Positions 59,852 through 64,000 of a stretch of 64,000 nt of DNA are shown here, in pieces. A program made the position numbers and the translations under genes. Location of the stretch: the NCBI GenBank assembly GCA_903895995.1, contig CAITVX010000039.1:62001-126000 (forward strand), in the 5' to 3' direction. A model generated the notes under the pieces. The model was not told the origin of the DNA. It ran no database searches and worked only from the letters and a program-made list of their open reading frames with translations. Every line of letters begins with the position of its first letter. Position 1 is the first letter of the stretch. The stretch comes from an uncultured Actinomycetes bacterium. GTDB lineage: Bacteria > Actinomycetota > Actinomycetes > Nanopelagicales > Nanopelagicaceae.

Positions 59852-59906
59852 CTCGTTATTGCGCCTCGTTATTGCCGACTCGTTATTGCCGACTCGCTAT
59901 TGCCGC
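59852..59906. repeat. Four 13-14-bp tandem repeats at the prfB 3' end
   Basis: Units of the form CTCGTTATTGCCGA start at 59852, 59865, 59879 and 59893 (first one 13 bp, last one with two changes). They lie 3 bp beyond the prfB stop. Their content (GTTATTGCC) resembles, in reverse, the 12-bp array at the other end of prfB. Confidence 0.85.
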
Positions 59907-61013: not shown

Positions 61014-61041
61014 AGGGAAAGAGTAGCGAGTAATAAGGGCT

Positions 61042-61125
61042 GGCATTATCGCTGGCGTTATCGATGGCATTATCGCTGGCATTATCGCTGGCATTATCGC
61101 TGGCGTTATCGCTGGCGTTATCGCT
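61042..61125. repeat. Seven 12-bp tandem repeats upstream of prfB
   Basis: Seven contiguous units of GGCATTATCGCT / GGCGTTATCGCT (one with GAT) fill 84 bp between prfB and the Tad gene, 29 bp upstream of the prfB start. The mix of A and G variants shows partial divergence. It would lie in the promoter or leader of prfB. Copy number may vary between strains. Confidence 0.95.
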
Positions 61126-61161
61126 GAGACGGCTGCCCGCATTCGGAATCTGAATGGCGCC

Positions 61162-62506: not shown

Positions 62507-62734
62507 CTATCGAACACTATTCATAGAATCGAGAGAGTTGCGCAGTAAACCCTGTATCCGAGGAGCCGCAACGGTCCATATTCCAGTTACCAATCCAGTT
62601 GTCATGAGGACAACGAGGACCCAACCTGGAACATCTCCGCGTTCATCAATGATGAGCGCACGGACTCTCGCTTGAAACTCCATGCGATAGATAGCGAATC
62701 GGACCACAACTTTACTGAGATCTTCTTTTCTCAT
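62507..62734 (-). CDS. Small single-span protein of the Tad locus
   Basis: The 75-residue protein reads DERGDVPGWVLVVLMTTGLVTGIWTVAAP (in parts) with a helix at about 36-57. Short proteins of this RGDVPGWVL type are found in actinobacterial Tad loci; whether it is the pilin subunit is not clear. GGGAGAGAAGTA precedes the ATG. Confidence 0.62.
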   Translation of the reverse strand: MRKEDLSKVVVRFAIYRMEFQARVRALIIDERGDVPGWVLVVLMTTGLVTGIWTVAAPRIQGLLRNSLDSMNSVR

Positions 62735-62824
62735 TACTTCTCTCCCTTTGGTTTATTAATTGATTTCTTATCCGTGATTGCTTGCTTGTATTGGCATGTG
62801 CATTCGTCCAGCTCATTGATTGAC

Positions 62825-63418
62825 CTAACCCCCAAAGTTTGCGCCAAGTGCAAAATAGGATGGCCAGAGTGCAAAGAGAATTGAGATTGGGAGAATAAGG
62901 AAAACAACAGGGATCATAAGTTGGATCTCTGCTTTGCTCGCTCTCTCTGAAATCAACAATCTCTGTGCTTGCCGCACTTCTTCAACCTGTCTTCCGACAA
63001 CGTCGATGAGTGGCGAGCCTCGCTCAACCGAGATCGCAAGAGAATCACAGAAGCGGCGGATGATTCTTGAATCAACTTCCTTATTGAGGATATCTAGGGC
63101 CTGTGCAAGATTTATTCCATTCTTCATCTGAGAAATGATTGGAGAAAGCAGTTTGATGAATTCGCCACTTCCTCTCTCGCTAATATGTGAAAGAGCGCTC
63201 GATGGGCTCATTCCTCCTCCAATCAATATTGCGAAGAGCTCGACAACCAAAGGAAATTCCAATTCGATGGATGCGATTTCTCTCCTCCTGCGTTGTCTAA
63301 GTGCCAAACCGTCAGAAATGCTCAAAGCCTCTGCTTTAAATTCTTGAAACAAGCTCTCTCCAAAGAAGAGAAATACAGGGAGAAAGATGAGGGTTGCAAG
63401 GATGAGGGCCCTACTCAT
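62825..63418 (-). CDS. tadC: TadC-like type II secretion F-domain protein
   Basis: The 197-residue membrane protein has a T2SS-F domain: FPLVVELFAILIGGGMSPSSALSHI, RFCDSLAISVERGSPLIDVVGRQVEEVRQAQRLLISERASKAEIQLMIPVVFLILP in parts. It is shorter than classical TadC, as in other actinobacteria. The ATG lies in the second copy of a 20-bp duplication that also supplies its AAGGA ribosome site. Confidence 0.8.
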   Translation of the reverse strand: MSRALILATLIFLPVFLFFGESLFQEFKAEALSISDGLALRQRRRREIASIELEFPLVVELFAILIGGGMSPSSALSHISERGSGEFIKLLSPIISQMKNGINLAQALDILNKEVDSRIIRRFCDSLAISVERGSPLIDVVGRQVEEVRQAQRLLISERASKAEIQLMIPVVFLILPISILFALWPSYFALGANFGG

Positions 63419-63455
63419 TGAAAGATCCTTGGCGTCATTGAAAGATCCTTGGCGT
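63416..63455. repeat. Perfect 20-bp tandem duplication at the tadB/tadC junction
   Basis: CATTGAAAGATCCTTGGCGT occurs twice without a change (63416-63435 and 63436-63455). With one copy, the TadB stop and TadC start would overlap as ATGA; with two, both proteins stay the same while a 16-bp spacer with ribosome site appears. Confidence 0.97.
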
Positions 63456-64000
63456 CATTGGAAGACGACCCACTCGACCCATCCAGATATATGCGAGAAC
63501 GCTCATACAAACCCCGGCAAAGAGAACACTCACACCACCTGGCGTTGAGAAAGCTATAACAGTATTCGCCTGCGTCGAAAGTATCAGCAAGAGAATCCAA
63601 GGAGCGGCGGCGGCGATAAGGGCTGAATTCTTGATCCAACCATGCTTTGCACGAATCTCACCACGTACCGCAATATCACTTCGAATGAAATCTCCCAAAG
63701 TTCGAAGAGTGATTGCGGTATCGCGGCTACCTGTCCCTCGCGCATAGTCAAGAACTTCACAGACTTGATCGGCTAACGCATCATGAAAGCGACCTTTAAT
63801 AATAAGAAAGACGCGCGCAAAATCACCGCTCTCTCTCAAGACTTTCTCGCACTCTGCGAAAGTCTCACGAGTTTCCATAGGGCCCCGCAGTGAAAGTCCT
63901 GTCAAAGTCTCTGCAAGGGACATCCCCGAACGCAATCCCGAGATGATGTGGTCGATGATCTCAGGCCATAGAGCAGCGAGTTCAATCCGCTGCTTCTCGA
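63435..64000 (-). CDS. tadB: TadB-like type II secretion F-domain protein (5' end outside window)
   Basis: About 188 residues are visible and the frame is open to the right edge. EIIDHIISGLRSGMSLAETL, YARGTGSRDTAITLRTLGDFIRSDI and two C-terminal helices match the T2SS-F domain of TadB. The upstream TadA ATPase and pre-pilin genes are probably beyond the edge. Confidence 0.82.
   Translation of the reverse strand, partial: EKQRIELAALWPEIIDHIISGLRSGMSLAETLTGLSLRGPMETRETFAECEKVLRESGDFARVFLIIKGRFHDALADQVCEVLDYARGTGSRDTAITLRTLGDFIRSDIAVRGEIRAKHGWIKNSALIAAAAPWILLLILSTQANTVIAFSTPGGVSVLFAGVCMSVLAYIWMGRVGRLPMTPRIFQ

Follow-up and report, generated by a model that had tools for sequence, protein, structure and literature searches.

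We wondered how tadB and tadC, two adjacent genes of a pilus assembly locus, came to stand 16 bp apart in an uncultured actinobacterium and what this spacing might mean for their translation. We analyzed a stretch of 64,000 nucleotides (G000:C39:62001-126000, hereafter the window) from a 1.357-Mb draft genome of 39 contigs. A tad pilus assembly set is present at this locus, in which a TadA-type ATPase precedes two T2SSF proteins, Flp and TadE-like genes (Table 1). PF00437 was matched by the gene preceding tadB and tadC, and PF00482 was matched twice, once by each of these two genes. TadE (PF07811) scored just under gathering, TIGR03819 scored under its cut-off at the tad locus, and the flp-like pilin gene, which had no Pfam or NCBIfam match, was recognized by its PGWVL motif alone.

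Table 1. Features at and around the tadB-tadC joint (positions in the window unless a locus is named)
Feature	Position	Strand	Basis or remark
tadB, 3' part (T2SSF family)	63435..64000	-	Pfam PF00482; gene runs to L149:1163, past the window end
Upstream CAATGA, third partial copy (putative microhomology)	63455..63460	-	lag-20 match string
SD-like AAGGA within the tadB PRIF codons, ancestral position	63446..63450	-	sequence; computed anti-SD pairing
20-bp copy encoding the last tadB codons and stop	63435..63454	-	sequence
7-codon frame MTPRIFQ-stop, putative ORF	63415..63438	-	from the ATGA at the tadB stop to the ATGA at the tadC start
20-bp copy adjoining tadC	63415..63434	-	outside tadB/tadC coding except the tadC ATG; holds the second AAGGA
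Duplicated SD-like AAGGA, upstream of the tadC ATG	63426..63430	-	sequence; computed pairing
tadC (197 aa, T2SSF family)	62825..63418	-	Pfam PF00482
tadC-flp spacer	62735..62824	-	array-free in this species
Small flp-like pilin gene	62507..62734	-	PGWVL motif common to relatives

The joint between the two genes holds two 20-bp copies directly next to each other that agree at all 20 sites; on the minus strand, two successive CAATGACGCCAAGGATCTTT precede CAATGAGTAGG. A first-pass annotation had already recognized this exact tandem duplication, placing it one base off (63416-63455 instead of 63415-63454). Identity at a lag of 20 spans 26 bases (63415-63460), with 4 more matches past one mismatch, and TRF called 2.5 copies on the joint (63415-63465). 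On the minus strand, the tadB stop TGA (63437-63435) and the tadC start ATG (63418-63416) are separated by a gap of 16 bp. Since the end of tadB with its stop codon, the AAGGA motif and the tadC ATG all lie within the repeated unit, the two proteins keep their sequences and the distance of the ribosome site (SD) to tadC is kept as well. Exact copies and intact frames thus bear out the earlier statement that an ATGA overlap became a 16-bp gap with neither protein altered. The 20-mer has no other occurrence in the examined stretches of the own genome or in any relative's locus. Simulating the window 20 times with a first-order Markov model gave no exact tandem duplication of period 13-60, vs 6 in the real window, which places the duplication far beyond chance. 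We consider it likely (probability about 0.82) that a single slippage-type event duplicated 20 bp across the tadB-tadC joint, with proteins and SD distance preserved, and that it is a young example of the short tandem duplications clustering at gene ends and in spacers of the tad locus in this genus.

To place the event in time we turned to the relatives. tadC was located in 26 of 31 same-genus relatives, each species being represented by one genome, and the joint was examined in all 26. None of them held a second copy of the 20-bp unit (0/26), which rules out an old conserved element present in two copies in all relatives, and a direct repeat of more than 10 bp within 150 bp of the joint was likewise absent in 26/26. 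Instead of the 16-bp gap of this genome, which lacks the RTGA/TRATG overlap at tadB-tadC, a 4-bp overlap formed by ATGA or GTGA (RTGA) was found at the joint in 24/26 relatives. The two others have gaps of 6 bp (G023) and 54 bp (G022). Overlaps of 4 bp also occur at the tadA-tadB joint and between TadE-like genes. The relative with the closest TadB (G003, 83% over the part searched) has a single copy and an ATGA overlap. Given the lack of a second copy in all relatives and the overlap in 24 of the 26, the single-copy overlap is ancestral and the duplication derived and lineage-specific; a single-copy ancestor is, as judged from the relatives, well supported. The first-pass description of the event as recent therefore holds relative to species divergence, whereas its date is only loosely bounded by the identity of the two copies.

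Replication slippage between microhomologies gives rise to short tandem duplications. With one unit removed in thought, the distance between two copies of CAATGA would be 20 bp, equal to the unit length, and mispairing between them would duplicate exactly the 20-bp unit. As these direct repeats would sit at this distance in the single-copy state, slippage would explain the event. CAATGA stands at the right spacing in the present-day sequence, and the putative microhomology of the ancestor is read from it. As a point against this route, the upstream CAATGA encodes MT in LPMTPRIF, where EV, QV or QT is found in close relatives. The event resembles other slippage-type short tandem duplications in its exact adjacent copies, its putative short flanking repeat and its restriction to a single lineage. 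Unlike the usual ones, it falls on a stop-start overlap and re-spaces two genes while changing neither protein. On a small scale, it illustrates neatly that a single mutation can re-space two operon genes while carrying the start signal along.

The first-pass annotation had further proposed that the duplication gives tadC its own ribosome site. A new site is ruled out as stated, since AAGGA already lay within the PRIF codons of tadB and, among the 24 relatives with an overlap, 14 had an equal or stronger computed anti-SD pairing inside tadB (the computed pairing here amounts to -5.0 kcal/mol). The SD-like motif is older than the duplication, and the SD was therefore copied rather than supplied by it. 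Where PRIF lies at most 2 residues from the tadB stop, its Arg codon is AGG in 5/6 genomes, compared with 3/21 where PRIF is more distant (Fisher p 0.0037 with the own genome counted and shared descent uncorrected). This codon bias is consistent with the AGG acting as the SD of tadC. An SD hidden in coding codons allows the gene end to be duplicated without harm to either protein.

The first-pass annotation also called the duplication neutral, which need not hold for translation. In a reporter study on E. coli gene pairs, a gap of +14 nt cut reinitiation by 40-80% (PMC10666635). With these data and the conserved overlap in mind, the gap could matter and neutrality is not to be assumed: the 16-bp gap could weaken the coupling of tadC to tadB. 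The contribution of the SD to such coupling ranges from essential to none according to another report (PMC6728339). Translation of tadC now probably starts de novo at the copied SD, together with some reinitiation, and the latter may be aided by the 7-codon frame bridging the two ATGA sites. This frame, MTPRIFQ, arises because 20 mod 3 = 2, and stop-start overlaps remain at both of its ends. The ancestral joint and that of the relatives, with a 4-bp RTGA and an intragenic SD, match the ATGA/GTGA termination-reinitiation overlaps described in both reports (PMC10666635, PMC6728339). The present joint differs from these coupled overlaps in its 16-bp gap and its 7-codon bridging frame with ATGA at each end.

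MTPRIFQ might accordingly be read as a relay minicistron: ribosomes terminating on tadB would restart, translate seven codons and restart once more on tadC, so that coupling is preserved. That the frame is open by construction fits this reading, and so does a frame in G022 (L026, gap 54) that runs from the tadB ATGA and also ends just within the tadC start; moreover, the last 15 nt of the upstream gene are given as sufficient for coupling in PMC10666635. We nevertheless regard a relay as unlikely, as any duplication of the joint has a one-in-three chance of a 2 mod 3 length and the relative with the 6-bp gap (L009) has no RTGA stop. Genome-wide, bridging frames were found in 7/23 pairs in which an RTGA stop is followed by a gap of 4-60 bp, which is not a clear excess; 3 of the 7 are trivial (4-bp gap), and the count used home-made gene calls with imprecise starts. 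The tadB-tadC pair is absent from the 23 because the gene caller mis-started tadC. Enrichment of bridging minicistrons across the genome was set aside as unconvincing.

The converse reading, that the duplication was kept since it uncoupled tadC from tadB, with an own SD and a 16-bp gap leading to independent initiation and another TadB:TadC ratio, seems quite unlikely to us, because the SD was present before the duplication and independent initiation may not be new. In its favor, the overlap is retained in almost all relatives, the reporter data show the cost of a similar gap, and SD presence is highest at gaps of 9-15 bp according to PMC2784483.

We then asked whether the duplication stands alone. 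Tandem arrays were counted with TRF (score at least 60, period at least 9, merged), and for controls we took up to 20 kb from the start of contigs C1 and C2 in 20 relatives. Across 85.9 kb, the tadC loci of the 26 relatives contained 36 arrays (4.19 per 10 kb), compared with 8 arrays in 430 kb (0.19 per 10 kb) of control contigs, a comparison whose significance is overstated as the control tests take species as independent. Other loci gave 3 arrays in 84 kb (prmC), 8 in 103 kb (otc) and 21 in 98 kb (thrB). The thrB-locus arrays mostly have multiple-of-three periods at one place, which we take to be the neighboring rho gene from the window position. In the own genome, 7/40 arrays lie within 10 kb round the tad locus (Poisson p ~3e-8, the region having been picked post hoc). 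GC skew along contig C39 had no clear turning point, and the replication terminus was set aside as a cause of the hotspot.

The spacer between tadC and flp carried an array in 10/25 relatives in a species-specific manner; in this count L019 was excluded (10 bp only), two arrays reach contig ends and the boundary of L008 to flp is uncertain. Elsewhere, arrays were found in 1/131 control spacers, in 4/109 spacers of the prmC, thrB and otc loci and in 10/477 spacers of the own genome (overlapping stretches counted twice). The ten loci are L003, L005, L006, L008, L009, L011, L020, L022, L026 and L028, with periods of 10-23 and, in L008, also 30/60. The L017 spacer is array-free, and its start is much like that of L020. 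By eye, the array units seem unrelated between species, and in-frame arrays lie in the N-terminus of flp in L007 and L010. In eight relatives (L003, L005, L011, L013, L020, L023, L026, L028), arrays lie 1.3-2.1 kb upstream of the tadC stop, by position near the tadA end or the tadB start, with periods all divisible by three. No arrays were found inside the tadB or tadC bodies among the relatives. With these bodies free of arrays and triplet periods near the tadA end, non-triplet periods are therefore found where no frame is at risk, a rule that the 20-bp unit of the window fits.

As a pattern, these data show a hotspot of tandem arrays at the tad locus of the genus, with the duplication as one young example. 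Candidate causes of the excess are the mutation rate, a relaxed constraint and selection on expression. That the joint is an assembly artefact of a draft (metagenome-type) genome in 39 contigs is very improbable, as the array measures only about 46-51 bp, far under usual read length, with intact frames on either side, and comparable arrays occur elsewhere in the tad locus of relatives from other assemblies. Intergenic tandem repeats of freshwater bacteria, described for deletions in Planctomycetota, are ascribed to slippage in an earlier report (PMC9426551). The arrays described here resemble them in their position in spacers; unlike those, they belong to an actinobacterial genus and are concentrated at a tad pilus locus. 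Our search of open-licence papers found neither a duplicated stop-start overlap nor repeats at tad loci. The duplication itself is ordinary in kind; of more interest is the excess of arrays across the locus. A tentative and rather unlikely extension would be that recurrent duplication at this hotspot produces species-specific arrays which tune the assembly genes against pilin output, the duplication in the window being a newborn array that keeps its stop-start contacts through the 7-codon relay. Should the hotspot be genuine and under selection, the tad locus of these uncultured actinobacteria would lend itself to testing the adjustment of pilus expression by spacer arrays.

Further repeats lie close to the joint. 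In the window, a 12-bp x 7.3 array is found upstream of prfB (61039-61126) and a 14-bp x 3.9 array directly past the prfB stop (59852-59905). In a 19-bp x 2.4 array (L149:3180-3225), a permease-like gene has its 3' end and stop codon duplicated, a second gene-end duplication near the tadB-tadC joint. A lysine/alanine-rich protein adjoining the tad locus contains a 9-bp x 13 in-frame repeat (KVA; L149:6746-6862). In another genus of the family (L030:1120-1980), tadC starts in a GTGA overlap, and its N-terminal part contains a 15-bp repeat (serine/glycine/asparagine) that stays in frame.
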